Below are positions 9,601 to 32,738 of a DNA stretch of 64,000 nt, piece by piece. The notes under the pieces are model-generated. The model was not told the origin of the DNA and ran no database searches. It was given only the letters and a program-made list of their open reading frames with translations. How positions within the stretch are numbered: position 1 is the first letter of the stretch; each line of letters opens with the position of its first letter. Both the position numbers and the translations under genes were made by a program. The DNA lies in the NCBI GenBank assembly GCA_030123605.1, contig CP126123.1, positions 868,001 to 932,000 of the forward strand, given 5' to 3'. The DNA is from Nitrospira sp. (GTDB lineage: Bacteria; Nitrospirota; Nitrospiria; Nitrospirales; Nitrospiraceae).

Positions 9601-12600
9601 AATGATGAGGATTCGGAGCGTGGAGCTCAAAAAACCAGTGTTGAATCGGGGTCAGGGGAATGCCCTCGACATCGGCCGCATCATCGGCAGGTGGAATGTC
9701 GGCACGAGTGACGACCGGCGCCAGCTCGCCGATCGTCTGCTGCTGAAACAACTGCCGCGGCGTCAACGCAATCCCTTGCTGTCTGACACGAGAGACGACT
9801 TGGATGCTGAGGATGGAATCGCCGCCCAGTTCGAAGAAGTTGTCATGAATCCCGACACGCTCCACACCCAGGACCTCGCGCCAGATCGCCGCCAGCGTGG
9901 CCTCGAGCTCCGTCCGCGGCGCTGCATACGGACGGGCCTCCGACCCGCCCTCCTCCGGAACCGGCAGGGCCTTTCGGTCCACTTTGCCGTTCGGCGTGAG
10001 CGGCAGCTTGTCCAGGAATACGTACGTCGCCGGCACCATGTACTCCGGCAAGCGGCGTCGCAGGAATTCCCGTATTTCCGCCGACGCCACCGGCTCGGTC
10101 GCCACGAGATAACCGACCAGGCGTTTGTGGCCGGCCTGCTCTTCCCGCGCCACTACGACCGCTTGCGCGATATGTGGATGCTCGACCAGCCGTGTTTCGA
10201 TTTCGCCAGGTTCGATCCGATAACCCCGGAGCTTGACTTGGTGGTCCACTCGGCCGAGACATTCAATGGTGCCATCCGTCCGCCGACGGCCCACATCACC
10301 GGTGCGATACAGCCGCGTGCCGTCTTCTCGAAACGGATGGGGCACGAAGCGCTCGGCGGTGAGGTCCGGCCGTTCCCAATAGCCGGTCGCCAGCCCGTCG
10401 CCGCCGATGTAGAGTTCCCCGACCACGCCGATCGGCACGAGTTGCAGACGGCGATCCAGCAGATAGATGTCCGTATTGGCCAGCGGCCGTCCGATCAGGA
10501 TCGGCCCCGCCGGATGGTCCACCCGGTGCGCCGCCGACCACACGGTCGTCTCCGTCGGGCCATACACATTCCACAGCGCGGCCCCTGTCCGTGATAAGCG
10601 CGCGGCCAAATCCGGAGCCAAGGTTTCGCCGCCGCATAACTGGGTCAGCCCCGGCAAGCCTTGCCAGCCGGCGTCCAGGAGCATCCGCCAGGTGGCCGGC
10701 GTGGCTTGCAGGATGGTGGCGTCGGCTTGATTCACCAGATGCCCAAGCTTCGTCCCGTCCGCCGCCGTGTCCGTCTCCGCCAACACACACTCCGCCCCCA
10801 CCATCAGCGGCAGGAACACCTCCAGCACCGCAATGTCGAACGACAGCGATGTGACCGCTACGACACGATCGCGCGGGGACGGTCTTAACAGAGCCTGCAT
10901 GGCGCACAGAAAATTCATGACGCTTCGATGCGAGATCATCACACCCTTGGGGCGTCCGGTGGATCCGGACGTATAGATGACATACGCCGTCTGGGCGGAG
11001 TGGCTGGCGCCCCGTCGGCGTCCCGGCGGCGGGGCGCCCGGCAGCGTGCCGTCTTGGTTCAGATAGAGGACCGGCGCCGCACAGGCCGGCAGTCGGTCGG
11101 TCAGTGCCCGTTGCGTGACCACCCCAGCCACGCGCGCATCCTCCGTCATCAAGGCCAGACGCTCGCTCGGATAGCGGGGATCCAACGGCACATAGGCGCC
11201 GCCGGCTTTGAGAATGCCGAGTAACCCCACCACCATCGCGATGGAACGCTCCACGCACAAACCCACTCGCGCGTTCGGCCCGACCCCTGCCGCCACGAGC
11301 GCGTCGGCCACTCGCTCGGCACGCACCTCCAGTTCCCCATACGTCAGCGACTGTTCGGCACCTCGCACCGCCACGGCCTCCGGCGTCCGCCCCGCCTGCT
11401 GATCCACGACCTGATGGACACATTGATCGTGGGGATACGCTGCCGCCGTAGCATTCCAGTCGACTACGGCGCTGCGCCGCTCGGGCTCCGTCAGCAACTG
11501 TACGTCCGACAACCGCGTCTCCGGCGCGGCAATCACCTGTTCCAGCACGAGCCGGTAGTGTCGCGCCATGCGGGTGATCGTCTCCGCGTCAAATAAATCC
11601 GTGCTGTACTCAAGTTCTCCGGTCAGCTCTCCATCTCGCTCCGTCAGATCAAGGGTGAGGTCGAAGCGGCTGTGCTGCAGATCGACCTTGAGTCGGGTCG
11701 CCTCAATGCCCGGCACATCCACCGCTCGAAGGTGATCTTGATCCAATGAGAACATGACCTGGAATAACGGGCTATAGCTGAGATCACGAACCGGTTGAAG
11801 TGCATCCACCACCTGTTCGAATGGACAGTCCTGATGCGCCTGTGCGCCCAGGACCGTCTCCCTCGCCCGCCCCACGGCCTCGCGGAAAGAGGGATCGCCG
11901 GACAAGTCGGTGCGCAACACGAGAGTATTGACGAAGCAGCCGATCAGCGGCTCAACTTCGCGGTGAGTTCGATTGGCGACCGGCGTTCCCACCGCGAACG
12001 CTTCCTGCCCGCTATGGCGAGACAGGAGCACCTGAAATGCCGCCAACATGGTTGTGAACAATGTCACGTTCTGCCGCCGACTGAACGATATGAGAGACTC
12101 AACCAATGTGTGAGGCAACACAAAAGAAAACAACGCGCCCCGGTAGCTCTGTGAAGGAGGCCGAGGCCGGTCTGTCGGCAACGCAAGAGTCGGCACATCG
12201 GTACCAAGCCGGTTCTTCCAATAGGCCAACGAATCGTCCAGCCTCGAACCGACATACCGTTGACGTTGCCAGCATGCATAATCGGCGTATTGAATTGGCA
12301 AATCTGGCAACGTAGAAGGGCGGCCACCCGTGTATTCCTGATACAGAACGGAAAATTCCCGCACCAAGACTCCCAAGGACCATCCGTCCGAAATGATGTG
12401 GTGCATCGTGAGCAGCAACACTTGTTCCTGAGGAGCGACGTTCACCACACTGACACGCCAGAGCGGTCCCTCGTCGAGCGTGAACGGAAGGCGAGCATCC
12501 TCCGCTGCCAGGCGTCCTATGGCTACGTCACGCTTTTCCTCTGAACGGACTTCAAGGTCGAGCACCGCAATGGAGATGCGCTTCTCAGGGGTAATGCGCT

Positions 12601-15600
12601 GAACCGGCCGGCCATCAACCGTCGCCAACGTCGTACGTAAGGCATCATGGCGGCTCGCGATTCGATTCAATGCCAGTTCAGCAGCCGAAAGATCGAATGT
12701 GCCTCTGAGATGAAGAGCGGCCGCAAGGTGATAGAAGGAACTGCCGGCTTCGAGTTGATCCAAGAACCAGAGCCGCTCTTGCGAAAACGACAACGGGGCC
12801 GGATCGAACGGTGAAGCGGCGGTCACGAGGAAAGAGTCGCACGCCGCCGGGTGATCGCGTAGGTCCGCGAGCAGCATCGCTAAACCGGCGATCGTCGGCG
12901 TCTCGAAAAAGTCGGCCGGAGCCACTTCCCGTTGGTAGAGGGTGCGTACTTGTGAGAGAAGCTGCACGGCGAGGAGCGATTCACCACCCAGTTCGAAGAA
13001 TGAATCGTGAACGCCGATGCCGTTAATCTTCAGAAGTTCTTCCCATGTACCGACCAGACGCTGCTCCATCTCATTGGAAGGAGCGCGATAAGGGGTCGCG
13101 AGCGGAGGGCGCCGGTGACCAGGAGAGATGGACCGCGCGTCTACGGCTTCTTGCTCGCTCTCTACGTCCTCATCGCGTTGCGGGGGCAAGCACGCCTCGC
13201 TTCTCACAGCCTCCACCCAGTACCGCTGTCGCTCGAATGGATAGGTGGGTAACGGAACGCGGTATCGTTCTTCGCGGGCATAGATGTGCGGCCAATCGAC
13301 GCATCCGCCCGCGAGCCACACTCTTCCGAGGGCTTCCCACACATGTGCCTGTCCCGGCTGCCGCTTGTGCGGATGTGAAAACGAAGAGATGACGGACATA
13401 GAAGTACCATCGGAACCGCTCATGGTCGAGAGCCGACGGCGGGCTAGGGTACTGAGCGTATCGCCGGGGCCGACCTCCAGGAGAACACGGTTCGCCTGCT
13501 TCACCAATCTGTCCAGGCCGGCAGAGAAACGGACTGTCCGTCGGAGGTGGCGCACCCAATAATTCGGCGTGGTTACCTCCGTCTTCGAGATCCAGTCGCC
13601 GCTCACGTTGGAGAGAAAGGGTATCGTGGGCTCACGGAACGTCACTTGCTCCAATGCTTTGTGGAAGGCCGGGAGAATCGGCTCCACCATGGCGGAATGG
13701 AACGCATGGGAGACATGAAGGCGTCGGGCGGCAATGCCTTGTGTATCGAGTCGGGCCGCCGCCGTTTCAATGGCCTCCGTGGGACCCGATAAGACGGACA
13801 GCCGCGAGCCATTGACGGCCGCCACACTGCAACTTCCGAGGAACGAGGCCAGGTCGGCTTCATCCAGGTTCACGGCGAGCATCGCTCCGGCAGGAAGGGT
13901 CTGCATCAACCGTCCACGTTCGGCGACCAATCGAATGGCTTGCTCGAGCGAAAAAACGCCGGCCAGGCAGGCGGCGACATACTCGCCGATGCTGTGACCG
14001 ATCATGGCGTCCGGTCTGACACCCCACGCCATCCAGAGTTTGGCCAAGGCATACTCCACGATGAAGAGAGCCGGCTGGGTCAGGGCGGTTTGATTGAGCC
14101 GGACCGACATCATCTCTTTGTCATGATCAGCCGGATACAGAATCTCCCGCAGATCACAACCCAGATGCGACGCAGCGAGGTCCGCACACCGGTCGATTTC
14201 TTCTCTGAAGAGAGGCTCTTCACGGTAAAGCTCGCCCGCCATGTCGACATGCTGAGCGCCTTGTCCCGGAAAGAGAAAAGCGACGGGCCGATCGGCCTGA
14301 ACCGGTCCCGACTCCAGAAAGCGGTGAGGATCTCGTTCATTCAGAACGCGGCAGGCATCGTGATGATCATGGCAGAGCACCACCCGGCGATAAGGAAAAT
14401 GCCGACGGCCGACTTGCAGGGTATACGCAATATCGGCAAACGAAGCCGATGAACCTTCCGCGAAAAACTCCATGAGCCGAGTAGTGGAGAGGTCCAGTGC
14501 GGACGGGGATTTGGCCGATATCGGCAACACATGCCAGATCCGCGAAGAAGACTCGATCTGGTGGGGAGCTGCCTCTTCCAGCACGACATGTGCATTGGTG
14601 CCGCCCAACCCAAACGAGCTGACGCCGGCCCGGCGCGGCATCCCGTTTCTCCCCCAATCGCGGAGAGCGGTGTTCACGAAGAACGGTGTGGCGGAAAAAT
14701 CAATTTCGGGGTTCGGATCGGTGAAATGGAGACTCGGCGGGATCTGTTTGTGGACCAAGGCCAGGACAGTTTTGATCAAACCCGCGATACCGGCCGCAGC
14801 GTCAAGGTGACCGATATTGGTCTTCACCGAACCGATCGCACAGAATCCTCTGTGATCCGTCTGCGTTTGGAACGCCTGGGTCAGTGCAGCCAGCTCGATC
14901 GGATCTCCCATGGGCGTACCGGTTCCATGTGCTTCGATGTATCCGATCGTCCTCGGATCGACCCCGGCTGCGACTTGCGCGGCCCTGATGACGTTCGCTT
15001 GCCCTTCGATACGCGGGGCCGTGTAGCCGACCTTGCGGGCACCGTCATTGTTGATGGCTGATCCCCTGATGACGGCCAAGATATGATCGCGATCGGCCTG
15101 TGCTTCCTGAAGCCGCTTGAGAAGCACGAGACCCACTCCGCTGCCGCCGACCGTTCCCTGTGCGCCGGCATCGAACGCTCGGCAATGGCCGTCCGGAGAA
15201 GCGATGCCGCCCTTTTGGTACAGGTAGCCGACGTGTTGCGGAACCGTGATGGACACACCGCCCGCCAACGCCATGTCGCATTCGCCGGCAAGTAGGCCTT
15301 GGCAAGCCAGATGCACCGCTACCAACGAGGTGGAACAGGCCGTTTGGATCGCAAGGCTCGGCCCTTCCAAGTTCAGTTTGTACGAGGCGCGTGTGCAGAG
15401 TGAATCCTTCTCCACGCCGAGCAAGGCAGCCATATCCGCCGCGGATTGAAGCAGAACGCCTCGGGGAAAGAGATTGAACAGGTAGCCGCTCGAGCTCGAT
15501 CCGGCATAGACGCCGATCGGACCGGGAAATCGATCAGGATCATAGCCGGCGGATTCCAACGTTTCCCACGCGCATTCCAAGAAGAGACGGTGTTGAGGAT

Positions 15601-15898
15601 CCATGACCTCGGCCTCTCGGGGGGTGACGCCGAAGAAGCCCGCATCAAACAAGTCGATGCCGTCCATGATGCCGCGCATGCGCACATAGTGCGGATTCCG
15701 GCGCAGCGATTCCGGCACCCCTGCCTCTGTGAGGTCCTGTTCGCTCAACAACGAAAGAGATTCCACTCCGTCACGCACATTCCGCCAATAGGCAGCCAGG
15801 TCAGGGGCGCCGGGAAACCGCCCTGCCATACCGATGACCGCGATGTCCAAACCATCGCGCAGGATTTCCGACTCAACTGATGACGACGATCGACTCAT
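3683..15898 (-). CDS. Hybrid PKS-NRPS, KS-AT-ACP-C-A(Gly-like)-T-E-C-A(Dab-like)-T-E
   Basis: A 4,071-residue three-module enzyme. KS spans about 17-440 with TACSTS, Cys188. AT has GHSIGEY, Ser636, and a HAFH motif near 730 that fits malonyl-CoA. ACP is LGGES, Ser974. No KR, DH or ER is present, so a beta-keto unit is expected. The second module has C (HHIISDG, His1166), A (YTSGSTGRPKG near 1643), T (Ser2028) and an E domain with HHLVTDG and EGHGRED. The third has C (HHHVLLDG near 2684), A, T (Ser near 3552) and E. The codes I read are DILQLGVVWK, close to Gly codes, and DIWELTADDK, a pattern I associate with 2,4-diaminobutyrate. The C-terminal tail (TPADFP...ILEDIQ) resembles a COM donor matching the next protein. 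The start is coupled to the upstream stop by an ATGA overlap. Confidence 0.95.
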   Translation of the reverse strand: MSRSSSSVESEILRDGLDIAVIGMAGRFPGAPDLAAYWRNVRDGVESLSLLSEQDLTEAGVPESLRRNPHYVRMRGIMDGIDLFDAGFFGVTPREAEVMDPQHRLFLECAWETLESAGYDPDRFPGPIGVYAGSSSSGYLFNLFPRGVLLQSAADMAALLGVEKDSLCTRASYKLNLEGPSLAIQTACSTSLVAVHLACQGLLAGECDMALAGGVSITVPQHVGYLYQKGGIASPDGHCRAFDAGAQGTVGGSGVGLVLLKRLQEAQADRDHILAVIRGSAINNDGARKVGYTAPRIEGQANVIRAAQVAAGVDPRTIGYIEAHGTGTPMGDPIELAALTQAFQTQTDHRGFCAIGSVKTNIGHLDAAAGIAGLIKTVLALVHKQIPPSLHFTDPNPEIDFSATPFFVNTALRDWGRNGMPRRAGVSSFGLGGTNAHVVLEEAAPHQIESSSRIWHVLPISAKSPSALDLSTTRLMEFFAEGSSASFADIAYTLQVGRRHFPYRRVVLCHDHHDACRVLNERDPHRFLESGPVQADRPVAFLFPGQGAQHVDMAGELYREEPLFREEIDRCADLAASHLGCDLREILYPADHDKEMMSVRLNQTALTQPALFIVEYALAKLWMAWGVRPDAMIGHSIGEYVAACLAGVFSLEQAIRLVAERGRLMQTLPAGAMLAVNLDEADLASFLGSCSVAAVNGSRLSVLSGPTEAIETAAARLDTQGIAARRLHVSHAFHSAMVEPILPAFHKALEQVTFREPTIPFLSNVSGDWISKTEVTTPNYWVRHLRRTVRFSAGLDRLVKQANRVLLEVGPGDTLSTLARRRLSTMSGSDGTSMSVISSFSHPHKRQPGQAHVWEALGRVWLAGGCVDWPHIYAREERYRVPLPTYPFERQRYWVEAVRSEACLPPQRDEDVESEQEAVDARSISPGHRRPPLATPYRAPSNEMEQRLVGTWEELLKINGIGVHDSFFELGGESLLAVQLLSQVRTLYQREVAPADFFETPTIAGLAMLLADLRDHPAACDSFLVTAASPFDPAPLSFSQERLWFLDQLEAGSSFYHLAAALHLRGTFDLSAAELALNRIASRHDALRTTLATVDGRPVQRITPEKRISIAVLDLEVRSEEKRDVAIGRLAAEDARLPFTLDEGPLWRVSVVNVAPQEQVLLLTMHHIISDGWSLGVLVREFSVLYQEYTGGRPSTLPDLPIQYADYACWQRQRYVGSRLDDSLAYWKNRLGTDVPTLALPTDRPRPPSQSYRGALFSFVLPHTLVESLISFSRRQNVTLFTTMLAAFQVLLSRHSGQEAFAVGTPVANRTHREVEPLIGCFVNTLVLRTDLSGDPSFREAVGRARETVLGAQAHQDCPFEQVVDALQPVRDLSYSPLFQVMFSLDQDHLRAVDVPGIEATRLKVDLQHSRFDLTLDLTERDGELTGELEYSTDLFDAETITRMARHYRLVLEQVIAAPETRLSDVQLLTEPERRSAVVDWNATAAAYPHDQCVHQVVDQQAGRTPEAVAVRGAEQSLTYGELEVRAERVADALVAAGVGPNARVGLCVERSIAMVVGLLGILKAGGAYVPLDPRYPSERLALMTEDARVAGVVTQRALTDRLPACAAPVLYLNQDGTLPGAPPPGRRRGASHSAQTAYVIYTSGSTGRPKGVMISHRSVMNFLCAMQALLRPSPRDRVVAVTSLSFDIAVLEVFLPLMVGAECVLAETDTAADGTKLGHLVNQADATILQATPATWRMLLDAGWQGLPGLTQLCGGETLAPDLAARLSRTGAALWNVYGPTETTVWSAAHRVDHPAGPILIGRPLANTDIYLLDRRLQLVPIGVVGELYIGGDGLATGYWERPDLTAERFVPHPFREDGTRLYRTGDVGRRRTDGTIECLGRVDHQVKLRGYRIEPGEIETRLVEHPHIAQAVVVAREEQAGHKRLVGYLVATEPVASAEIREFLRRRLPEYMVPATYVFLDKLPLTPNGKVDRKALPVPEEGGSEARPYAAPRTELEATLAAIWREVLGVERVGIHDNFFELGGDSILSIQVVSRVRQQGIALTPRQLFQQQTIGELAPVVTRADIPPADDAADVEGIPLTPIQHWFFELHAPNPHHWNQSLLLELKWPLDLSIVTEVMEHVVAHHDALRLRFDRHERGWTQRYAAQDNQQVMHLIDLSSIPPESRRVHLDEEIDRWERSLDIAVGPQLRVVYFAMGGATPDRMLFVMHHLVTDGISWRIVMEDFHLAYGQLAAGLSVSLPTKSTSYARWATRLAEHVTSETLEREAAYWLDPAYRRALPIPVDHPTGDKRELVSETLHVWMDEASTHALLQDVPAVYRTHINDVLLTALVRTLGGWSGHEEVLLDLEGHGREDLFSDVDLSRTVGWFAGVTPILLSWSPDAPLADCLKSVKEQLRRLPHGGIGYGILRYLEPSTSTMETLRSYPASQVRFNYLGQMDHVLPADSPFVPSIDAAGVDRDPEAMLPYELDINSDILGERLHMSWTYSRSRYDNETVQQLSRTYLEILNELIQHCLQSKTGGRTPSDFPLSGLDQSGIDRFLETRRGIDDVYPLTALQQGFLVHTIHENSGVYIEQLSCTLTGDLNVPLFQEALQGIVDRHPILRTSFVWEGLREPLQIVHARATLPIEVEDWRGLSSKMQQARLGLYLRTARTNGIDLSTAPLLRVALIRIAEQAYFFVWNHHHVLLDGWCVSLLLKEVFLRYRGLRHGKRESLTPAPPYRNHIAWLRRQDFSSAERYWRAALAGFTASTVVAVQEHASPSHDESSLEFEQQSLRLPEDETQLVSAFCQRHKITFNTLIQGVWALLLRHYSGEDDVLFGVTVSGRPPDLPGVQMMIGLFLNTLPLRVRINSESSIVTWLQALLNQNLEMREFEYASLYQIQGWSDVPRGQPLFESLLVFENYPMGQGLSDAQDGVTVEDMVVEGHTHYPLTLDVIPGPATTINFIFDRTRIKAELVSLMLKHFRQVLEQIVAGPGRRLGEVTVLSAAEVREQTRTWNETGAAYPAEQSVAELFEAQVARTPAAVAVQGGAEALTYAELDARAAQVAGGLVAAGVGPDTVVAVLAARGVEWVTLLLGILKAGGGYLPLDPTHPPARWGQLLTQGHVRQVLTTEAERHRLEPLVAERPDLRVATRASLPAGRYPRLPRRTHPQQVGYVLFTSGSTGQPKGAVVSQQGMVNNVWGKLPVLGLTSRDVVAQTAGVGFDISVWQGLSALLCGGRVEILSDDVVQEPVRLLAEFARTGVTVAELVPSLLREVVAVEPAPALPALRWLLPTGEAVTPELCRAWLTRYPTVPLLNAYGPAECADDVAYYPLTRAPGAEETVVPIGRPAANLELYVLNADLAPVPVGVTGELWIGGVGVGRGYLGEPGRTAAAFGPHPFSEQPGQRLYRTGDLGRYRADGTLEFLGRRDQQVKVRGVRIELGEIEARLREHPAIGQAVVVARAEPAGSKRLVGYLVTTAPVAVAAVREFLGRRLPEYMVPAVYVVLDKLPLTPNGKVDRKALPAPEAGGGEARLYVAPRTEFETTLAAIWRQVLRVERVGIHDNFFELGGDSILSIQVIAQARERGIRVTPRQLFQHQTVAALAAVSTGKPAEAEREGPVQGAVPLTPIQQDFFAQGVANPHYYNQAVLLAVQPAVDLRRLEHAVQAVLAHHDAFRLRFTPTADGWRQAYAAEAAAVTVEYVDLAAVPVAEQAQALEAAATDRQARLDLTTGPVVRAVLFTRGPAQTARLLLVIHHLVVDGISWRILLEDLMTAYQALTTQAPVRLPTSSSFQAWATQLHAYSHSAALQAEAASWLAIEPAAAWAIPVEDPQGAATEADAEIVTVSVDAETTRQLVQAVPAAARTQLHEVLLAALVQVLSEWSGSAVVAFDLEGHGREDVFPELDVSRTVGWFTTVYPVVVRVAPGATPGAVLAAVKARVRRLPHKGLGYGLLRYGGGDPEVRRHLAAQPPAPVSFNYLGQLDQTFPPEAPVRPAPESVGPNQAAGSRLPYEWDINAHILDGRLHVLWGYSGRRYRRATMAALGERYEQALRTLIRECLAGEAAGYTPADFPDVELSPEALNHILEDIQ
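5160..5560 (-). repeat. Duplicated A-T segment, copy 1 (third module)
   Basis: The end of the Dab-like adenylation domain and the start of its T domain are nearly the same as the equivalent part of the Gly-like module at 9745-10140. Shared long DNA blocks include CAACTGCCGCGGCGTCA, CAGATCGCCGCCAGCGTGG and CCACTTTGCCGTTCGGCGTG. The similarity exceeds what protein constraint requires and suggests recent duplication or gene conversion. Confidence 0.7.
5362..5371. repeat. C10 homopolymer (G10 in the coding strand)
   Basis: Ten consecutive C on the plus strand encode the Gly run in the linker between the Dab-like A domain and its T domain. Runs of this length are prone to slippage; a change of one base would remove the T and E domains of the third module from the protein. 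Confidence 0.85.
9745..10140 (-). repeat. Duplicated A-T segment, copy 2 (second module)
   Basis: Partner of the segment at 5160-5560, with the same DNA blocks and nearly the same protein from LPEYMVPA through GKVDRKALP to VGIHDNFFELGGDS. Differences cluster just outside, in the T-domain helices. Confidence 0.7.
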
Positions 15899-16548
15899 TT
15901 CGTTCTCATGACGGCCTGCTGGGCACGTCGTTGCTGCATCCGACGCGCCCCGGCTTCCTGCTTGTCTTTGATTTGCTTCGTTGTCTGAGCATCAGTGACG
16001 GGCGCCGGCGCCGCGGCGACATAGGCAGCCAATGCTTCGACGGTCGGATAGCGAAAGAGATCCACCATCGAGACCTCGCGGGATGCGATGGCACGTACCT
16101 TGGTCAATACTTTCGGCAACAGCAGGGAATGTCCGCCCAACTCAAAAAAATTGTCGTGCAACCCGGCGGCAGGAAGCCCGAGAAGTTCACCCCAAATATC
16201 GGCGATGGCCCGTTCGCATTCATTGCGCGGCACCACCTGTGTGACACCCGTCGATGCCGTTCTGGCCTTAGCCAGCAAGGCTTGTCGATCGATCTTTCCG
16301 CGAGAGGTTACGGGAAAGGCTTCGATGAAGACCCAGGTGCTCGGCACCATATAATCAGGCATCCGCACGTTCAGAAAGGCTCGCAGATCCTGGGCGGTGA
16401 ACGAACCTCCCATGATGCGGGGCACGATATAACCGACTAGATGCGCATCACCACCCGTGCGTTTGCGCTGCATGTTTTCCAGACGCAGACGCAGCAACCG
16501 TCGCTGCGGTTCACTTAGACGTTGGATGCGCGCAGTCAGATCCGTCAT
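15895..16548 (-). CDS. Stand-alone adenylation C-terminal subdomain plus thiolation domain
   Basis: A 217-residue protein holding the part of an adenylation domain that the upstream synthetase lacks. After a short helical linker (LSEPQRRLLRLRLEN) it has HLVGYIVP, the A9-like motif MPDYMVP and the A10 motif RGKIDRQAL with the catalytic lysine. A thiolation domain follows, FFELGGHS with Ser141, and then an Ala/Pro-rich tail. It starts one base after the stop of the FAAL-NRPS gene (TGACATG on the minus strand) and its own stop overlaps the next start as ATGA. I infer that the two polypeptides assemble into one working A-T unit, or that a frameshift broke a formerly single gene. The two frames differ, so a sequencing or real frameshift is possible, but the clean stop/start junction favours a genuine split. 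Confidence 0.9.
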   Translation of the reverse strand: MTDLTARIQRLSEPQRRLLRLRLENMQRKRTGGDAHLVGYIVPRIMGGSFTAQDLRAFLNVRMPDYMVPSTWVFIEAFPVTSRGKIDRQALLAKARTASTGVTQVVPRNECERAIADIWGELLGLPAAGLHDNFFELGGHSLLLPKVLTKVRAIASREVSMVDLFRYPTVEALAAYVAAAPAPVTDAQTTKQIKDKQEAGARRMQQRRAQQAVMRTK

Positions 16549-16549
16549 G

Positions 16550-19500
16550 TCACTTCACCGCCTTAACGACGGCCATAGAGTCGGCCCACCAATAATGGCA
16601 ATCATCGGGAGGGAGGAGCGAGCGGACGAGGCTCAGCGTGAAAGACCCAAAATGCCGAAACAGCAGTCGTTGATGTCGCCGGCTGAACGAATCGATCTCG
16701 TTGGTGTAATAGGTGAAGCACCCGCCGGGACGCAGCAATCCGGCCGCCGCCGGAATGAACGCCTCGGCGAAGGTGATGCCGTTGATGACGGCCTCTTCAA
16801 ACTCCGCCTCACTGGCCGGATAGGTGTCGAAGAACACGCCGTCGAAGGGTCCCACGTGGTCGACGACCTCTTGCCATGTCCCTTCCACAAGACGGATGTC
16901 GCGATCCGAATACTGTCTGCGCCAATCGGTAAAGGCACGCATGACGTCGCGATTGCATTCGATGATCGTGTGCGAACGCGGGCCTCGTTCTTGAATATAA
17001 GACGCCGAAATTCCCATGCCGAATCCGACTTCCAGGATGTCGCCCCGGGATTCCGTGACGATATCGGCCATGGCTTTCATCAACGGCGTTTCCCAGTCCT
17101 GCATGACCTGCTGCCCTTCGATGATGAGCTCCGATGGCCTGTAGTCCGCTCGGCTTCCGGCCCAGCCCCGTTCGATACCGGCGCGGTCAGACCCGGAAAC
17201 AAAGCGCTTGGCATGATCATCGAGCGCCAAGAGATCGTCGGAAAACTCATCCAGAGCGCGCCGTAGAAGCCAATTCCGTTGATTGGAGCGCGGCGGCGAC
17301 AGAAATTCTTCTTTATTGATCTTGAGGTACACGTCGAATTCTGACTTCCGTTGGATCACGGTCTTCCTCCGTTCATCGGGGGTTGACTCCACTTCGTATA
17401 ACCACTGTGCTTCGACCGCCGGAACGGATTCGATCTCCCTGAGCAACCGCTCTTGAGCACTCGCGCCGATCCCATCGAAAATCGTCGTCCAATCACCGGA
17501 TGTATTGGTTTCCAGAAAGACCCTGGCTTCCTTCACTTCCGGATGTTGGCGCACATGGTGTTCAATTTCCGCCAACTCGACGCGAAACCCTCGAATCTTG
17601 ATTTGCTCGTCACGCCGTCCCAAGAATTCCAGGTTGCCGTCCGATCGCCGCCGCGCCCGATCCCCGGTGCGATAGAGTCGTTGGCCGATGCGCCGGCTGA
17701 ACGGATGCGGGAGAAATTTTTCGGCCGTCAGCGACGGAAGGCGATGATATCCGCGCGCGACTCCATCCCCACCGATATACAGATCACCAGGCAGGCCGAC
17801 CGGAACCGGTTGGAGATTGAAATCGAGAACGTACAACTCGACATTGGACAGGGGACGGCCGATCGGGACCGTGGTCATCGCGAGCCAATCCGTCTTCGCA
17901 TCCGGGACGTACAGACTGGCCGTGACCGTCGCTTCGGTCGGTCCATACGCATTGCACCAGCCCACCTGATCGCCCGCTACGCGTCGCCAGCGCCGCACAT
18001 CGTCCGGCGATGCCTTGTCGCTTCCGACGACGACGAGACGGAGCGGCGACGGCATCACAGCGCGACGGTGCTCGAGGTCCTCGACCCATCCTGCCCAATA
18101 GGGCGTCGGAAGGTTGAGCACCGTGATGCTCCGTTCCTCGATGAAGGCGTGAAAGTCGGCATAGGCCGGCATCGCCTCAGAGGGCCGCAATACCACGGTT
18201 GCACCGGCTAACCATGTCGGAACACATTCTTCGACGGCCACATCGAAACTGATGGAGGCGAACTGCAGCACGCGATCGTGCGGTCCCAGTCCATACATCT
18301 GAGTCATGGCCGTCCCATGGTTCACGAGGGAGCGATGGGTCACGCTGGTCCCTTTGGGCCGGCCGGTGGTACCGGAGGTATACAGCAGATAGGCAACATT
18401 GTCGGGGTTCGCCAGGTTGAGGAGATTTTCGCTTGAATGTTCCGCCGCTATTGGCCAGTGATCATCCAATACAAAGATCGGTGCCACATCGCCTGGGACG
18501 GACGCCTGGACGCACCCCTGTGTCAATACGAGCTTCGGCTGCGCATCGTGAAGGATCGCAGCCTTGCGTTCCTCCGGATAGCCGGGATCGATCGGCACAT
18601 ACGTCGCTCCGGCTTTGAGACTTCCGAGCAGGCCGATCACCATTTCAAGAGACCGATGAACGCACAGCCCGACCGTCACCTCTGGCCCGATGCCCTGTGC
18701 GCGTAAGTACCGGGCACATTGATTCGCACGGGCATTGAGCGAGGCATAAGTATAGGTGCGGCCATCACAGACCAGCGCGGGGGCATTCGGAGTCTGCGCC
18801 GCCCGAGCTTCGAACAACTCGTGCAGGCAGGACGTATGGGGATAGTCCTTCTGCGTGGCGTTGCATTCGACCAGTACAAACTGCCGTTCCTCCGCCGACA
18901 GTATGCACAACTCGCTCAGCGGCACGTCGGGAAAGGCGATGATCCGATCCAGCAATTTCTGAAAGTGTCCCGCCATGCGCGCAATGGTTGATTCGATGAA
19001 TAAGTCGGTGCTGTATTCGAATACGGCGCCGATCGTGCCGTTTGCCCGTTGCGCCATTTCCAGCGTGAGATCGAACACCGAGGTTTCAGTGCTCATAGCC
19101 AGCCTGGACGCCTCAAGGCCTCCCAACCGACGGATGTCCGACGGCTTGTCTTCCAGCACGAACATCACTTGAAACAACGGTGTATGGCTGAGCTCTCTGG
19201 CCAACCCCAATTCGTCGACCAGACGCTCGAACGGAACGGATTGGTTGGCTTGCGCCCCCAACACGGTCGTCCGGACCTGCGCCAGGAAGGTAGAAAAAGC
19301 AGGGTTCCCGGACAGATCGGCACGTAAGGCCACCGTGTTGACAAAGCAGCCGATCAGACCCTCGCATTCTCTGGAACGGTTGGCGATCGGTGTACCGACA
19401 CAGAAGTCCGCCTGGTCGCTATAACGGAACAACAGCACATTGAACGCCGACAAGAGTGTCATGAACAATGTCGTTCGGTAGCGTGCACCCAGCGCTTGCA

Positions 19501-22291
19501 ACCTCCGCATGGTTTCCGCCTCTATCGTCCAGGCATAACGCGCTCCGCGGTGTCCTTGCACATCCGGGCGGGAACGGTCGAACGGGAGGTTCAGAACGGG
19601 GGCGACATTGTCGAGTCGAGCTCGCCAGTACGTCAGCTGCCGTTGGGGCTCTTCGTTCTCCATGTGTCGGCGCTGGGACAAGATCAGATCGGCATATTGA
19701 AAAGGGAGTATCGGCAAAGCCGATGATTGTCCTGCCACGAACGCCCCATACAACGTGGACAGCTCTTCATTGAGAATGCCCATCGACCATCCGTCCGTCA
19801 CGATGTGGTGAAGAGTGAGGGCCAAAATATGGTCCTCTTCTCCCATGCGGACCACACGCCCGCGCAGGAGCGGACCGTTCGCCAAATCGAACGGCCGACG
19901 GGCGTCTTCTGTTGTGACCCGCCGAGCTTCCTCTTCCCGCTGGATCTCGGGCACATGGCGCAGATCGTCGAGCGACAGCATGAGGTGGAGCAGCGGAAGA
20001 ATGACCTGTACCGGCCGCCCGTCTTGCACCGTGAAGTACGCACGCAGAATGTCATGGCGGGAAATGATTTCGTCGAGCGCACGACGCAACGCCTCCACAT
20101 CGAGCGCGCCTCGCAAACGAAGCGCGACGGCAACGTTGTTCACCGGGCTTCCGGGAGACAATTGATCGAGAAACCAGAATCGCTCCTGCGCGAACGAAAG
20201 GGGCAACACCTCTTGCCGGGCTATCGGCTGAATAGGATCCGCCGGCTCGGACGGTATGGAGCGGTCGGTGCGAAGCATCGTCGACAGATAGGCGACGAAC
20301 TCTCCGAAATTCGAATGATCGAATAACGTGTCTAATGGTAACTCCACCCGGTAAACTTCTCGTATCCGAGCCAACACCTGCAGGCCTCGCAGGGAGTCTC
20401 CACCGAGCGCAAAAAAATCATCACTCTGCAGGATCGGATTGTGGTGCAATACCTCGGCCCAGATGCGGGCGACGATCGTGTCGAGTTGCTCCGGAGCATC
20501 ATCATCAAGCCTCGTCTCCCCATCGGTAGGGGTCATCATGGCGGGCGTTTCCTGCAGGGCAGACTCCCTGATCACAGTCAGCTCGCGGGCAAGGTACTTG
20601 GTGCGGCAGAGCCGTCGTTGCACCTTTCCGCTCGACGTCTTGGGAAGCGTTCCCGGCTTGATGAGCACCACGACGGACACGGAAAGTTCGTGTTCATGCG
20701 CTACCGCCTCGCGGATGGCGGCAATGGCCGCCTCATGGTCGAATGCCTTGACGCGGAGTTCCGCTTCTTGCACGACGACCAGTCGCTCTTCCCCCTGCTC
20801 GACGATGGAAAACGCAGCCCCCGCATCAGCCCTGAGGACGGAGTGGCTCTCCTCGACCGTTCGTTCGATGTCGTGCGGATAATGATTGCGACCACGAATG
20901 ATGATCAGATCTTTCAGGCGACCGGCGATGAACAGCTCCCCATGGTCCAGCAGGCCGAGATCCCCGGTGCGGAGGAACGGACCTTCGCCGGTATCGGCCA
21001 ATCTGGCGTGAAACGTAGTTTCGGTCTCTTCTTTTTGCCGCCAATAGCCGCGTGCGACGCTCTTCCCGCTGATCCACACCTCTCCGACCTGCCCGTCCGC
21101 ACATTGGGTCCGGAGTTCGGGATGGACGATTCGAATCTGCTGATCGAGCCTGGCCGTACCGCATCCCACAAGCATCTGAACGCGATCGGCCGACGGCGAA
21201 TCTATGTGCCGGTCGTCGAATGCGGTGCCGATTGACCGGATGACGGGCGGATTCCCGGCTTCTCCTCCGGTCACCAGTAAGGTGGCTTCTGCCAACCCGT
21301 AGCAGGGATAGAAGGCTTCCTGACGAAATCCGCAAGACCGAAACGTTTCGGTGAACCGGCGGAGCGTGTCGGGACGAATGGGTTCCGCCCCGTTGAACGC
21401 CACGGTCCACGTGCTCAAGTCCAGCGAGCATCGTTGTGCGTCCGAAATCTGCCTCACGCAGAGGTCATAGGCGAAGTTCGGACCGCCGCTGGTGGTGGCA
21501 CGATACCGCGAAATGGCGGAGAGCCAGCGAACCGGTTTCTGCAGCACATGCACCGGCGACATCAGCACGCAAGGCACACCGAGATAGAGCGGTTGAAGCA
21601 CATTTCCGATCAACCCCATGTCGTGGTACAGCGGCAACCAGCCGACAATCACTTCCTGCCGCGTGTGCTCGAAGGCCTCCTTGATCATTCGTTCGTTATG
21701 CAGGAGGTTGCCGTGGCTCACCATCACGCCTTTCGGCGTCCCCGTTGAGCCCGACGTGTATTGGAGAAATGCAAGGGTATGTTCGTTGATGTCAGGCTCA
21801 CACCAATCATCACTTGCATCGATCGGCAAGGTATCGGTGGTCAGCCACCGCAACGCGGCAAGCCGCTCATATCCGGCCTCTTGGTCGGACAGACGGCGGA
21901 TGGCGGCCTGTACCGCGGTGGTCGTGAGCACATAGTCCGCATCGGAATCAACGGCGATGGCCTGAACGCGCGGCAACCCCCGCTTCCGCCGCGGCGGATA
22001 GGCTGGCACGGCAATGACACCGGCATACAAACAGCCCAAGAAGGCCGCAATGTAGTCGAGTCCGGGAGGATACAAAAGGAGGGCCCGTTCACCGGCCGCT
22101 CTGCACGATTGCAACCATGCCGCAATCGCTTTGGCCTGCCGCTCCAGATCGGCATATGTCAGGGCAATGCCATTCGTTTCTCCGTCCAGCAAAAACTCGT
22201 ACGCGCGCTGGTTCGGTATATCCGCGGCTCGACGGCGCAACAGTTCAACCAGGGTGAGCGGCTCCATGTGTATCGCGGTGCTCAGAGACAT
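16550..22291 (-). CDS. Initiating synthetase: fatty acyl-AMP ligase, ACP, C, A (core) and embedded GAMT-like methyltransferase
   Basis: A 1,913-residue loading protein. Residues 1 to about 580 form a fatty acyl-AMP ligase (YTSGSTGTPKG, GWLPLYHDMGLIG, SSGKVQRR). ACP LGGDS has Ser633. The condensation domain has HHIVTDG near 828-834, and the adenylation core has LLYTSGTTGRPKG near 1305, YGPTEAT and A8 RGFRVELAEIE near 1567. After A8 the protein does not enter the A9/A10 subdomain. It passes through about 130 residues into a class I methyltransferase with ILEVGFGMG near 1750 and FDGVFFDTYP, both typical of guanidinoacetate N-methyltransferase, then stops. The code I read is DVENVGAV-T, which shares D, E, N and G with the Orn code DMENLGLINK; the substrate is unassigned. 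As in PvdL, the FAAL should prime the chain with a fatty acid. Confidence 0.95.
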   Translation of the reverse strand: MSLSTAIHMEPLTLVELLRRRAADIPNQRAYEFLLDGETNGIALTYADLERQAKAIAAWLQSCRAAGERALLLYPPGLDYIAAFLGCLYAGVIAVPAYPPRRKRGLPRVQAIAVDSDADYVLTTTAVQAAIRRLSDQEAGYERLAALRWLTTDTLPIDASDDWCEPDINEHTLAFLQYTSGSTGTPKGVMVSHGNLLHNERMIKEAFEHTRQEVIVGWLPLYHDMGLIGNVLQPLYLGVPCVLMSPVHVLQKPVRWLSAISRYRATTSGGPNFAYDLCVRQISDAQRCSLDLSTWTVAFNGAEPIRPDTLRRFTETFRSCGFRQEAFYPCYGLAEATLLVTGGEAGNPPVIRSIGTAFDDRHIDSPSADRVQMLVGCGTARLDQQIRIVHPELRTQCADGQVGEVWISGKSVARGYWRQKEETETTFHARLADTGEGPFLRTGDLGLLDHGELFIAGRLKDLIIIRGRNHYPHDIERTVEESHSVLRADAGAAFSIVEQGEERLVVVQEAELRVKAFDHEAAIAAIREAVAHEHELSVSVVVLIKPGTLPKTSSGKVQRRLCRTKYLARELTVIRESALQETPAMMTPTDGETRLDDDAPEQLDTIVARIWAEVLHHNPILQSDDFFALGGDSLRGLQVLARIREVYRVELPLDTLFDHSNFGEFVAYLSTMLRTDRSIPSEPADPIQPIARQEVLPLSFAQERFWFLDQLSPGSPVNNVAVALRLRGALDVEALRRALDEIISRHDILRAYFTVQDGRPVQVILPLLHLMLSLDDLRHVPEIQREEEARRVTTEDARRPFDLANGPLLRGRVVRMGEEDHILALTLHHIVTDGWSMGILNEELSTLYGAFVAGQSSALPILPFQYADLILSQRRHMENEEPQRQLTYWRARLDNVAPVLNLPFDRSRPDVQGHRGARYAWTIEAETMRRLQALGARYRTTLFMTLLSAFNVLLFRYSDQADFCVGTPIANRSRECEGLIGCFVNTVALRADLSGNPAFSTFLAQVRTTVLGAQANQSVPFERLVDELGLARELSHTPLFQVMFVLEDKPSDIRRLGGLEASRLAMSTETSVFDLTLEMAQRANGTIGAVFEYSTDLFIESTIARMAGHFQKLLDRIIAFPDVPLSELCILSAEERQFVLVECNATQKDYPHTSCLHELFEARAAQTPNAPALVCDGRTYTYASLNARANQCARYLRAQGIGPEVTVGLCVHRSLEMVIGLLGSLKAGATYVPIDPGYPEERKAAILHDAQPKLVLTQGCVQASVPGDVAPIFVLDDHWPIAAEHSSENLLNLANPDNVAYLLYTSGTTGRPKGTSVTHRSLVNHGTAMTQMYGLGPHDRVLQFASISFDVAVEECVPTWLAGATVVLRPSEAMPAYADFHAFIEERSITVLNLPTPYWAGWVEDLEHRRAVMPSPLRLVVVGSDKASPDDVRRWRRVAGDQVGWCNAYGPTEATVTASLYVPDAKTDWLAMTTVPIGRPLSNVELYVLDFNLQPVPVGLPGDLYIGGDGVARGYHRLPSLTAEKFLPHPFSRRIGQRLYRTGDRARRRSDGNLEFLGRRDEQIKIRGFRVELAEIEHHVRQHPEVKEARVFLETNTSGDWTTIFDGIGASAQERLLREIESVPAVEAQWLYEVESTPDERRKTVIQRKSEFDVYLKINKEEFLSPPRSNQRNWLLRRALDEFSDDLLALDDHAKRFVSGSDRAGIERGWAGSRADYRPSELIIEGQQVMQDWETPLMKAMADIVTESRGDILEVGFGMGISASYIQERGPRSHTIIECNRDVMRAFTDWRRQYSDRDIRLVEGTWQEVVDHVGPFDGVFFDTYPASEAEFEEAVINGITFAEAFIPAAAGLLRPGGCFTYYTNEIDSFSRRHQRLLFRHFGSFTLSLVRSLLPPDDCHYWWADSMAVVKAVK

Positions 22292-22304: not shown

Positions 22305-23318
22305 TCATCTCGATTGGCCGACGGCCTCGGCTGAGCAAGATTCAGCCATGGCGACCAGGATCTTGCGCGGCCCCTTAAACGGCGCCCGTCCATGTGCGGC
22401 CAACATGTTGTCCAACAGCATGACGTCTCCAGCCTGCCAAGGAAATTCGACGGCGACGTTTCGATAGACTTCCCGAATTTCGTCCAAGACAGAATCCTCG
22501 ATCGTACTGCCGTCGCCGTAGTAGGTTTGCCGAGGGAGATCTTCCTCCGCTACAACCTGAAGCAAGGATTCCCGCACCGCCGGCTCAAGATTCGAGACAT
22601 GAAACAGGTGAGCTTGATTGAACCATATCGTTTCACGCGTCTGCGGATGCACCGCCACGGCCTGACACACATGACGAGTGCGAAGGTCGCCATCTTCTTT
22701 CCATTCCAGGTGAATGCCCGCTCGCCGACAAAACCGGTCCACTTCAGCACGATCGGACGTGTTGAAGACTTTCTCCCATGGCAAGTCGAGCCCGTTTCCA
22801 TAGTTCCGTACGTACATGACCTTTTTTTCGATGAACCGGGTTCTGATTTTCTCCGGGATGCGATTGAACACGTCACGACTGTCGGCAATCGGAGTCGCGC
22901 CTCCTTCTTGTGCGGCCACTGCACAGTAAAACCAAATCTTCATCGGCCATTCGTTCGTATAGGCATTTTCATTGTGGAGCGGAATGTGTTGATGTGCCGG
23001 ATATTCCGTAGACGTGTAGATCCGATTGGCGATGTGTGAGCGGGGGGTGGAGCGGAATTCGTACCCCAATAAATCCGGCGTCACCTGCTTGACCATTCGC
23101 TCGAATGCCTCAGTTGAATCGATGGGGAATCCTCGGAAGAGCATCCCGCCGAACTTCGGCAGATAGGCATGAACCCAGGGACGCAGGCCCTCCATCTGTA
23201 CAGCACAATCCCGGTCGCCAGTCGGCGTGACCACCAACGGAAGCCGGCAGTCGGACGAAAAGAAACTTTTCGTCAACGGCTGCAGCGCGGTCGTGTTTAT
23301 GTCACTAGGCGAGCTCAT
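22305..23318 (-). CDS. TauD/SyrP-like Fe(II)/2-oxoglutarate dioxygenase, probable amino-acid beta-hydroxylase
   Basis: A TauD/TfdA-family non-heme iron oxygenase. The HxE part of the iron triad is seen as PLHNENAY, and the distal histidine as MLAAHGRAPF, followed by a conserved arginine region. The family includes SyrP, which hydroxylates carrier-bound Asp at the beta carbon, so with an Asp-coded module in the same operon I infer formation of beta-hydroxyaspartate, a metal-binding residue. The open frame extends upstream to a GTG at 23396 that would overlap the thioesterase stop. I chose ATG 23318 because a GAGGGGG Shine-Dalgarno sits just before it. The stop lies 13 bases before the FAAL-NRPS start. 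An alternative role is hydroxylation of another residue such as Dab. Confidence 0.88.
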   Translation of the reverse strand: MSSPSDINTTALQPLTKSFFSSDCRLPLVVTPTGDRDCAVQMEGLRPWVHAYLPKFGGMLFRGFPIDSTEAFERMVKQVTPDLLGYEFRSTPRSHIANRIYTSTEYPAHQHIPLHNENAYTNEWPMKIWFYCAVAAQEGGATPIADSRDVFNRIPEKIRTRFIEKKVMYVRNYGNGLDLPWEKVFNTSDRAEVDRFCRRAGIHLEWKEDGDLRTRHVCQAVAVHPQTRETIWFNQAHLFHVSNLEPAVRESLLQVVAEEDLPRQTYYGDGSTIEDSVLDEIREVYRNVAVEFPWQAGDVMLLDNMLAAHGRAPFKGPRKILVAMAESCSAEAVGQSR

Positions 23319-23388
23319 CGATGCCCCCTCTTTCATCGGCGGCTGATGCGAGTCGTTGTCGCAATTCGAACCGTTCTGTTGTCGTTCA

Positions 23389-24159
23389 TCAGTCACGTGC
23401 TTCAGGCCTCATTCCACCCTGCAACACGCGCGACACGATGCTCACCAGAGGGTTGTGCGCGTCCCTCAGAAAAAAATGGTCGCCTGGCAACCTCCACAGA
23501 TGAAACTGCCGATCAGTCTGTTCGCTCCAGCCTTCAAGGGCCTCCGCCTTGACGATGACGTCGTCACTGCCTGCGAACGCCGAAATTGAGCACTGCAGAG
23601 GGGGGGCACTCACATGACGGTACGTGTCCCGCAACGCGAAGTCCGCCCGCAAGGTCGGAACCATCAGCGCCATCAGTTCTGGATGAGCCATGACCTCCGG
23701 CGGGGTTCCGTTGAACTGCTGCAGGCGGTCGAAAAAGGCGTCCTCCGACAGATCCGAGATGCGGTCCGTATCGACCACCTGAGGCGCGGGACAGGCGGAC
23801 ACGAACAGATGGTCGGGCAGGAAGCTGCCACCCCGGCGTAATTCACGCGCCAGCTCGAACGCAATCAATGCGCCGATACTGTGACCGAACAGCGCGAAGC
23901 TGCGATCCAGATAAGGCTCGATCGCCTTGCTCAAGGCTCGAATCAACGACGGCAAGTCCCCGATCGCCGGCTCATTGACCCGCGTCTCCCTTCCTGGCAG
24001 ATGGACGGACCAGATTTCGATGTCGGAAGACATGCGATCCGGCCAGGTTCGAAATACGGACGGCCCTCCGCCGGCATAGGGCACGCAAAAAAGCCGAATG
24101 CGGCCTTCCGTGGCCCGAGCGGGCACGATCCATCGTGAACGCGAGGTCGCAGTCAACAT
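23389..24159 (-). CDS. Type II thioesterase
   Basis: An alpha/beta hydrolase of about 256 residues of the external thioesterase family, which clears misprimed or stalled acyl groups from NRPS and PKS carrier domains. Visible are RLFCVPYAGGGPS near the N-terminus, the nucleophile elbow FGHSIG with Ser94, an acidic site in AGSDDVIV, and LPGDHFFL with the catalytic histidine. The start is set by a TAATG junction, where the MbtH stop codon TAA shares one base with this ATG, so translation is probably coupled. A longer frame from 24258 would overlap mbtH and is not needed. It sits inside the assembly-line operon, as such enzymes usually do. Confidence 0.93.
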   Translation of the reverse strand: MLTATSRSRWIVPARATEGRIRLFCVPYAGGGPSVFRTWPDRMSSDIEIWSVHLPGRETRVNEPAIGDLPSLIRALSKAIEPYLDRSFALFGHSIGALIAFELARELRRGGSFLPDHLFVSACPAPQVVDTDRISDLSEDAFFDRLQQFNGTPPEVMAHPELMALMVPTLRADFALRDTYRHVSAPPLQCSISAFAGSDDVIVKAEALEGWSEQTDRQFHLWRLPGDHFFLRDAHNPLVSIVSRVLQGGMRPEARD

Positions 24160-24475: not shown

Positions 24476-26848
24476 TCAGCTCAGTGAACCGATGGGAACC
24501 AGAGTCAACGTATGGCGGGTCGGCGACCCGATCAAAGGCAAGGCCGTACCCTGGCTCCAAGCTTGTTGTTGATCACGGTAATGAGGTGACAGCGGATGAC
24601 CGGACTGTCCCCCCGGCATGTGCAAAATGCCGCTTTCCGCATGTCCCGGTGAGACCACGAAGCGTTCGGTGGCGGACACCTTCCCACTGACCATTCGCAC
24701 ACAAGCGTCACAACCTGGCGCCTCACTGTCCGACATGTCGAGCAGCCACGAAAGGCCGGGCAGCGCTCCGCTCAAAGGATGTTGAATCTGCAGATGATTG
24801 ATCTGCCCCCACGTGACGTTTTCCGGGGATGCGCCATAGGTGTCTCGGAGTTCCTGCCAACTTCGCTCCATTGCGTCGACAAAGAACGACCGCCAGGCTT
24901 CGGAACCTTGGCCGGAAGGGGCCAATTCCGGTACTCGAGCGGTCAATAACGCCCGCAACGGGGTTTCCATCCCTCCGACATAGGTAAACTGCCGATCCTC
25001 GGCGAGACATCGTTCCAACAACGGCATGAAGATCGATCGGGCCAAGACATCGCGAAACTGAATCAAGAAGCCGTACCCGACGCTGTCGATATCGGCATGG
25101 CCATCCCAGGCATCCACGACCCGGCGCAGCGGTGCGAGGCCGGGATGGCTTCGAACCTCCTCATCGGTCAGGACCTCTCGCGCGATCCGTCGATAGAACT
25201 CGTAGAACTCGCTTTTCGTATCCAGTTGGATCCGCAACAGATCGGCTTCTTGCGCTCCCTGCACGCCGCGCAACTGCTCCGCAATCCGGTAGGCACGATA
25301 GCCGCCGACGAAGGAATGCCCCACGGTATACGGATACTGCGCGAGCATGCGTTGGTTGGCGCTGACGATGAACCCGGACGGCGGATCGATGATGCGGGGC
25401 AGTTCTTCGGCGGGAACATACCCGGCCCAACCCTTCGCCCCGTCCGCCCACGACACACTGACCGAACCGTCAAATCCCCGCCGAATGGGAATCCTCCCGG
25501 TGTACGTCCAGGCGATGTGTCCTTCGGCATCGGCCAGCATGACATTGTTCGCCGGTCCTTTCGCGCGATTCAGGACCTGAATCGCTTCGTTCACCGTGCG
25601 CGCTCCGTCCATATGGAACAGTCCGATATCGACGGCATCCGGATCGAGACCGGTCCAACGAACGGCGACCTTGTACCCGAGCAACGGCTGCTCCGCCACA
25701 GGGCCCCACACGGTATCCATACAGTAGACGATCTCATCGGGGTCGCCTTTGACGGCAATGACCTCGCGTCTGGTCTCGAAGCGGCGCCACCCCTGCGGCG
25801 TCTGATACTGGTTGGGGTCATCCCGATTCAGGTCGAGCCGCACGAGATCCACAAAATCGCCTTCGATATTCGTAAACCCCCACGCCACATGACGATTCGT
25901 TCCGACAACAACCACGGGAATACCCGGAACGACCAGGCCTGTCATGTCCACACCGTCATAGCGCAGGCGGACGCGGTACCAGGTATTGGGAACCGTCATG
26001 TCCAAATGCATATCATTGGCCAGCATGGCGCGTCCTCCGGCGACATGAGAACCGGCAAGGACCCACCCGTTTGAACCGACAGCGGGTTTTTCGCGAATGA
26101 CGTTGGCGTAACGAGATTGGTCGGAGTCAGGCGGTCGACGCATGGCCGCCAGCTCCTTCACCGGTATGGACACATGAAACTGATCCGGGTCTGTCTCGTG
26201 CAAAACGGCATGCGTATACAGATCGACATCGGGCAATAGGAAGGACTGTACGCTTGAGGGGAGCGCCTTCGCCATGACGGTCCGCATACGCTCATCGTCC
26301 TCATACAAATTCAGCATCTGAAACATGGCCAGAACGATGAGCAGGGAATCCGCTTCCTGCCAAGGTTGAGGCCTGTACCCGAGCAGGAGAAACTCCGGCG
26401 GCAATGTCGTCGCCTGCGCCAAAAAACTATTGATGCCCTGCGTATAGGCGTTCACGGTTTCCTGTTGGTCAGGCGGGAGCCCGACATATATCGCGCGTGC
26501 CGCCTGATGCAGACCGAGTCGTCGCTGCTTGATATCGTTTGCCACGGCGGCGCGGCCAAACACCTCGGCCAACTCCCCGGCCGTACTTCTCCGCAACAGA
26601 TCCATCTGAAAAAGACGATCACGGGCGATGACATACCCTAAGGCTCGGAAGGCATCTGCGCGGGTCTCGGCGACGATGGTCGGCACACCGTGCTCGTCCG
26701 AAGCGATCGACACGGCCGCCGTCAATCCCGAGATCGGGGCGGTGCCATCCAGCACGGGAAGCGACGCCCGCAGAGTCATGACGCCCCACAGTCCTGCCAT
26801 CACCAGGAAGACAATCATGATCAGCACGATGCGAACGGTGAATGTCAT
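24476..26848 (-). CDS. Penicillin acylase/PvdQ-type Ntn hydrolase, membrane-anchored
   Basis: A 790-residue precursor of the penicillin amidase family. Residues 5-27 form a hydrophobic segment (signal peptide or anchor), which places the enzyme outside the cytoplasm. The beta-chain start is predicted at Gly258/Ser259 in AVGSNGWV; Ser259 would become the N-terminal nucleophile after autocleavage. Further family marks are LANDMHL and [12 protein letters not shown]. In the pyoverdine pathway PvdQ removes the fatty acid placed by the PvdL FAAL domain. Here a FAAL loading domain and this acylase share an operon, so removal of the acyl chain in the periplasm is the natural inference. The start ATG overlaps the aminotransferase stop as ATGA. 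Substrate is inferred from context only; a role in quorum-signal acylation turnover is an alternative. Confidence 0.9.
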
Positions 26849-32430: not shown

Positions 32431-32738
32431 ACCGCTATTCGTTGCTCAATCACCTTCCGGCACCAGGACGCCGGTGCCGCCGCTGCATCCCAAGCGCAAT
32501 CCTCGAAACCAGTCAAAGTGCGGGAAGTGGTCGTCAACGAGGCGGTGGACCGGACGCCGGCCAATGATTCACCACAACCCTTTGGGAAGCTCACGGCCCA
32601 CCGGAACCACCTGGAGAACCGGCGAGGCTTTTTCCGGAAACTGGACATTCCTGGCGCCTCATACCCATGATAGGTTCTCTTCCGACTATTTTATTGTGCG
32701 CGCCCTCTTTTGCCCAGAAGACAGCGAGGAGTGCTCCC
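32431..32738 (+). other. 308-base gap, possible relic of a TonB-dependent receptor start
   Basis: No intact gene was found. A plus-strand frame through 32461-32671 reads as coding-like protein (AAAASQAQSSKPVKVREVVV, then NEAVDRTPAND) and ends at a TGA near 32671. An Ala-rich stretch followed by a VREVVV-type strand is what the mature start of a TonB-dependent receptor often looks like, and a receptor is expected after a fecR gene. The rest of the frame does not look like a receptor plug. This is a weak inference. Confidence 0.3.

Follow-up and report, generated by a model that had tools for sequence, protein, structure and literature searches.

A nonribosomal peptide synthetase (NRPS) of Nitrospira contains a methyltransferase (MT) domain resembling guanidinoacetate methyltransferase (GAMT), inserted at a point where the adenylation (A) domain is divided between two proteins. 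The presence of the GAMT-like domain is confirmed, and the conserved division of the A domain, which the initial annotation had missed, is the more unusual fact. Considering the sequence together with the genomic surroundings of its relatives, we estimate at roughly 60% the probability that arginine is loaded by this two-protein A domain and is N-methylated on its guanidine while bound to the carrier. The window analyzed here spans 64,000 nucleotides (positions 868001-932000 of the complete 4.32-Mb Nitrospira genome), and its relevant features are as follows:

16550-22291 (-): protein 1, 1913 aa, FAAL-ACP-C-A(N-part)-GAMT-like MT with nothing after the MT (Pfam domains and ORF)
18878-20215 (-): condensation domain (PF00668, residues 693-1138)
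17492-18826 (-): N-terminal A-domain portion with motifs A1-A8 and the code DVENVGAVT (PF00501 and TIGR01733; code by alignment)
17192-17389 (-): N-terminal extension particular to this MT family and conserved in every relative, including those that stand alone
16553-17191 (-): GAMT-like SAM-dependent methyltransferase core (human GAMT E=2.7e-26; Foldseek E=3e-17, Z 26.0)
17090-17092 (-): codon for the conserved Glu of QVMQDWETP, which aligns with GAMT's guanidine-binding Glu (E115 of A1)
16826-16828 (-): codon for the conserved Asp of FFDTYP, which aligns with GAMT's guanidine-binding Asp (D203 of A1)
16546-16552 (-): junction TGA-C-ATG, protein 1 stop and protein 2 start (sequence)
15895-16548 (-): protein 2 (217 aa) with the C-terminal A subdomain (motif A9, and A10 containing Lys85) plus the carrier (PF13193 and PF00550)
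3683-15898 (-): downstream synthase KS-AT-ACP-C-A(Gly code)-PCP-C-C-A(Dab code)-PCP-C (Pfam, codes, motifs)
22305-23396 (-): TauD-type dioxygenase (PF02668)
24476-26848 (-): penicillin-amidase-type acylase, weakly PvdQ-like (PF01804; NF051460 57 bits, under its cut-off)
26845-28242 (-): diaminobutyrate aminotransferase (NF005393 777 bits, cut-off 671)
28252-30096 (-): cyclic-peptide-type ABC exporter (TIGR01194 489 bits, cut-off 286)

Identity of the methyltransferase

The GAMT-type assignment was originally proposed from the motifs ILEVGFGMG and FDGVFFDTYP, both of which are indeed present and correctly placed within the 1913-aa ORF of protein 1. Searching the MT domain against PDB sequences (phmmer) retrieved human and rat GAMT (E=2.7e-26 to 3.4e-23), with no other PDB sequence below E=0.3. 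A profile built from 23 relatives retrieved GAMT at E=1.3e-38, the next match reaching only E=0.008, and the AlphaFold model (pLDDT 86.5) matched GAMT with a Foldseek E=3.2e-17 and a Z of 26.0; spermine synthase, the runner-up family, reached 15.8. The domain thus shares homology with GAMT over the whole core, a predicted fold clearly closer to it than to other class I MTs, and its Glu and Asp; sequence, profile and predicted fold all agree, firmly supporting the assignment of 16553-17191 as a true GAMT homologue. Pfam returned just the generic Methyltransf_25, below threshold, and no specific model. No ordinary NRPS N-MT came up among PDB sequences, with the single sequence or the profile, or in the fold search, in a library that may or may not contain N-MT structures.

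The linker of about 130 residues preceding the MT, previously described as having no recognized motif, turned out to be composite. About 66 of its residues form the conserved MT extension, which falls outside the GAMT-matched part of the predicted model, and only about 34 are variable linker.

The Glu and Asp were invariant in all 23 aligned sequences. They align with the two acids gripping the guanidine of guanidinoacetate in the 1XCJ structure, Glu45 and Asp134 in rat GAMT numbering. Beyond this set, an acidobacterial relative (L098) carries Gln in place of the Glu, and the MT ORFs of two gammaproteobacterial three-gene loci (L099:8462-9250 and L100:8467-9213) have lost both acids (Glu to Gln and Asp to His, in WQ and FHAYP/FHTYP). 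Acting on guanidine is therefore not required of every family member. The A domain neighboring the gammaproteobacterial MTs has a non-basic-looking code (DSALMAEVW/DSALIAEVW), and judging from these replacements this branch probably has an altered function.

The division of the adenylation domain

The frame of protein 1 closes at the TGA at 16552-16550 and the ORF of protein 2 opens one base further, with a Shine-Dalgarno-like AGGCGGTGA located within the final MT codons at this junction. Protein 2 contains the motifs A9 (MPDYMVP) and A10 (SRGKIDR) and the carrier motif FELGGHS. Since A8 is on protein 1 while A9, A10 and the carrier are on protein 2, a single A domain extends over two proteins, with its catalytic (A10) Lys on the second, as in the split of the Crz type. 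The placement of the MT inside an NRPS module, as first described, therefore stands in that the MT lies between A8 and A9, but the A domain is not continuous in one polypeptide, its remainder being encoded by the separate ORF 15895-16548.

The domain was present in 11 of 29 Nitrospira genomes, there as one open frame of 1911-2011 aa, and the stop codon, 1-nt gap and ATG were seen in all Nitrospira loci. Overall, 13 relatives carry A10 and the carrier motif on the ORF that follows (nine loci of the Nitrospira group, Nostoc, a Thermodesulfobacteriota MAG, a Pyrinomonadaceae MAG and Massilia), and L098, a second acidobacterium, has an identical split boundary. The A-domain split is hence a conserved feature of the Nitrospira group and five other lineages. 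The MT forms a third, separate ORF between the A-domain halves in Aeromicrobium, Streptacidiphilus, Streptomyces JHD 1 (where it is degenerate) and the two gammaproteobacteria; it follows an intact A-PCP in one Streptomyces locus (L056) and is free-standing in the other relatives. Among the embedded cases examined, there was none where the A domain continued in frame beyond the MT. The MT tree requires at least six changes between gene layouts, indicating that gene splits and fusions recur. A search of plasmids for MT relatives gave two matches, both weak.

These conserved splits bear on how domain insertions arise, and the two- and three-gene forms supply natural interacting A-domain halves that are useful in engineering. 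More tentatively, and at somewhat less than even odds, the family might represent a separate class of assembly-line MTs from the GAMT clade that methylates the guanidine of carrier-bound Arg and invariably divides the A domain at the gene level. If so, its free-standing, three-gene and two-gene forms would preserve a record of how a domain insertion can originate, in which an independent gene breaks an A domain and later fuses to one of its pieces.

Substrate and proposed reaction

In the reaction that we favor, the module following the fatty-acid starter would activate Arg through an A domain made of two polypeptides, with the large subdomain coming from protein 1 and the small subdomain, together with the catalytic Lys and the carrier, from protein 2. 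An A domain split in this way has been shown to work in trans in the case of corallorazine (PMC11342130). The GAMT-like domain would occupy the A8-A9 hinge, the site of N-, O- or S-methyltransferases in other NRPSs, while retaining its own C-terminus and stop codon at the gene level. Once Arg is loaded onto the carrier of protein 2, the MT would move a methyl from SAM to the guanidine, the delta-N being a somewhat likelier site than omega by the precedent of GAMT and BlsL, and the methylated residue would then pass to the downstream ketosynthase. We infer Arg rather than ornithine as the residue, as well as its carrier-bound form and the methylation site.

Methylation of a guanidino side chain, which had been raised at the outset as conceivable, is supported by the invariance of the Glu/Asp pair in the 23 relatives and, in several lineages, by the genomic surroundings. 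VioC/GntD-type guanidino-amino-acid hydroxylases occur in each of the three Streptomyces loci and also in Streptacidiphilus. The MT of L056 adjoins such a beta-hydroxylase (380 bits, cut-off 345), and the clusters of L022 and L021 contain matches of 368.6 bits (above the cut-off) and 319.5 bits (below it); L055 and L056, being closely related, do not count as independent cases. Since 150 Streptomyces genomes contained 33 copies over the cut-off, a coincidental spacing of a few kilobases is improbable.

In Allokutzneria (L020:5399-16801 and L025:4428-13363), a free-standing MT is found amid genes for a flavin amine oxidase, a C-N hydrolase, an AMP ligase, a VinK-type acyltransferase and a PKS. 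At the level of broad families only, these match the arginine monooxygenase, 4-guanidinobutyramide hydrolase, CoA ligase and acyltransferase of the guanidinobutyryl starter route. In the azalomycin version of this route the guanidino group is methylated, and the methyltransferase gene is absent from the cluster (PMC5082578). In guanidinobutyrate-primed polyketide clusters, the free-standing MTs are candidate guanidino methyltransferases of the type missing for azalomycin. Distant Streptomyces MTs with a GAMT core co-occur with an arginine 2,3-aminomutase (652 bits, cut-off 600), an enzyme that the blasticidin pathway also has; this gene group, seen in L058, L059 and L060 and accompanied in L060 by a DegT aminotransferase, is perhaps blasticidin-like. 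Counting against the guanidine reading, the Micromonospora MT (L015:10114-13021) has in its vicinity genes of diaminopropionate type (PALP and ornithine cyclodeaminase, of the SbnA/SbnB kind) as well as a lone AMP ligase. We found no guanidine-specific enzyme in the Nitrospira cluster itself.

The A-domain code given in the initial annotation, DVENVGAVT, proved correct by motif alignment. It has an acid or amide at pocket positions 239 and 278, as do many codes of unrelated A domains paired with the MT (DVEDLGCIS, DVEEIAVVS, DVENIGAIT, and DVEDNGCIT in L056). A search of the literature found no published A code matching DVENVGAVT, and in 392 Burkholderiaceae genomes searched for an arginine yardstick we obtained codes, with no identified arginine module. 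Some of the Burkholderiaceae codes resemble that of Nitrospira (DMENAGAVN and DMENMGAVN), and these look like hydroxyornithine codes.

This resemblance raises the alternative that the MT targets ornithine, or a comparable diamine, at its side-chain amine, yielding N5-methylornithine on the carrier. The diaminopropionate-type genes of L015 fit such a substrate, and the acid pair could also hold an ammonium group. Nevertheless, the GAMT-type Glu/Asp pair is retained, the context of the relatives is one of guanidino chemistry, and no ornithine oxygenase over its cut-off was found in this Nitrospira genome, so that we regard methylation of ornithine as unlikely. Lack of an ornithine N-oxygenase match reaching the cut-off also led us to reject a hydroxyornithine siderophore as the leading idea, another type of oxygenase being possible.

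Less probable still is that the MT simply takes the place of a usual NRPS N-MT, its target being the alpha-amine of the residue on the carrier. It shares the A8-A9 position with canonical embedded N-MTs (PMC11355689), and corallorazine, with the same split layout, contains N-methyl-Gly (PMC11342130). Against this, both the sequence and profile searches return GAMT only, the guanidine clamp is conserved, and free-standing relatives occur in pathways whose substrate, such as the 4-guanidinobutyryl starter, has no alpha-amine. An artefactual split (through a frameshift or a pseudogene) or an inactive MT is very improbable: two loci (L022 and L014) appear degenerate or orphaned, but the Nitrospira loci show a clean stop, 1-nt gap and ATG, the catalytic and carrier motifs are intact, and the boundary recurs in five other lineages, a conservation on which we rejected the frameshift explanation.

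Returning to methylation of carrier-bound arginine, the cluster contains a built-in control for the substrate question. The A codes further along read, by our assumed assignments, Gly, Dab, Asp, Dab, DVENVGAVT again, Dab and Dab. The second DVENVGAVT module lies outside the window (G000:C1:858980-863704; L039:5983-10704), is 62% identical to the first, and has an intact A domain with no MT; it is predicted to incorporate the same residue, unmethylated. Two of the Dab NRPS genes (G000:C1:851154-858917 and 863746-866997) are identical over their first 1058 bp, which suggests recent duplication or gene conversion. Together with these codes, the Dab aminotransferase, TauD oxygenase, acylase, peptide exporter and a FecR gene in the cluster neighborhood point to a product that is likely a cationic lipopeptide, and possibly a siderophore. 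A TPR-sulfotransferase fusion protein is encoded at 32667-34538 of the window, close to the FecR gene.

Comparison with known systems

The Nitrospira MT resembles GAMT (PDB 3ORH, 1XCJ) in sequence (about 34-36% over the core), in predicted fold (Z 26), in the Glu/Asp pair and in the IIECN and DTYP motifs, but differs in being fused to an NRPS A domain and in its extra N-terminal extension. Where GAMT has its acceptor-carboxylate region, the Nitrospira MT has a conserved TNEIDSxSRRHQR segment, a replacement that would fit a thioester-bound substrate. A precedent for the chemistry is BlsL of the blasticidin S pathway, a GAMT-like SAM enzyme that methylates the delta-N of the arginine guanidine in vitro; unlike the Nitrospira domain, it is free-standing and acts on a soluble late intermediate (PMC5572114). 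The variochelins, lipopeptide siderophores, have an acylated arginine first, followed by a PKS module, and a TauD hydroxylase, but their guanidine is unmethylated and no MT is reported (PMC10999976).

Interrupted A domains such as those of KtzH, TioS and TioN likewise harbor an MT, in most cases at the A8-A9 site, but these act on main-chain N or side-chain O or S, with no guanidine methylation and no gene split described (PMC11355689). As the embedded methyltransferases in that review are confined to these positions, guanidine methylation on an assembly line would, if true, be an added reaction. A literature search found nothing joining guanidinoacetate with NRPS methyltransferase domains, and a 2020 survey of interrupted A domains (PMC8341866) may list such a family.

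The layout itself is that of corallorazine Crz1/Crz2, in which the MT after A8 ends in a stop codon and A9/A10 and the carrier are on the next gene; this A domain is inactive as a single protein and adenylates once both proteins are mixed (PMC11342130). No corallorazine-like locus was seen among the three close Streptomyces members. In contrast to the Nitrospira domain, the corallorazine MT is described as a conventional N-MT that performs alpha-N-methylation of Gly (PMC11342130). As judged from its sequence, the Nitrospira case is thus a member of the GAMT family combined with a corallorazine-type split A domain, rather than a standard, continuous interrupted A domain.
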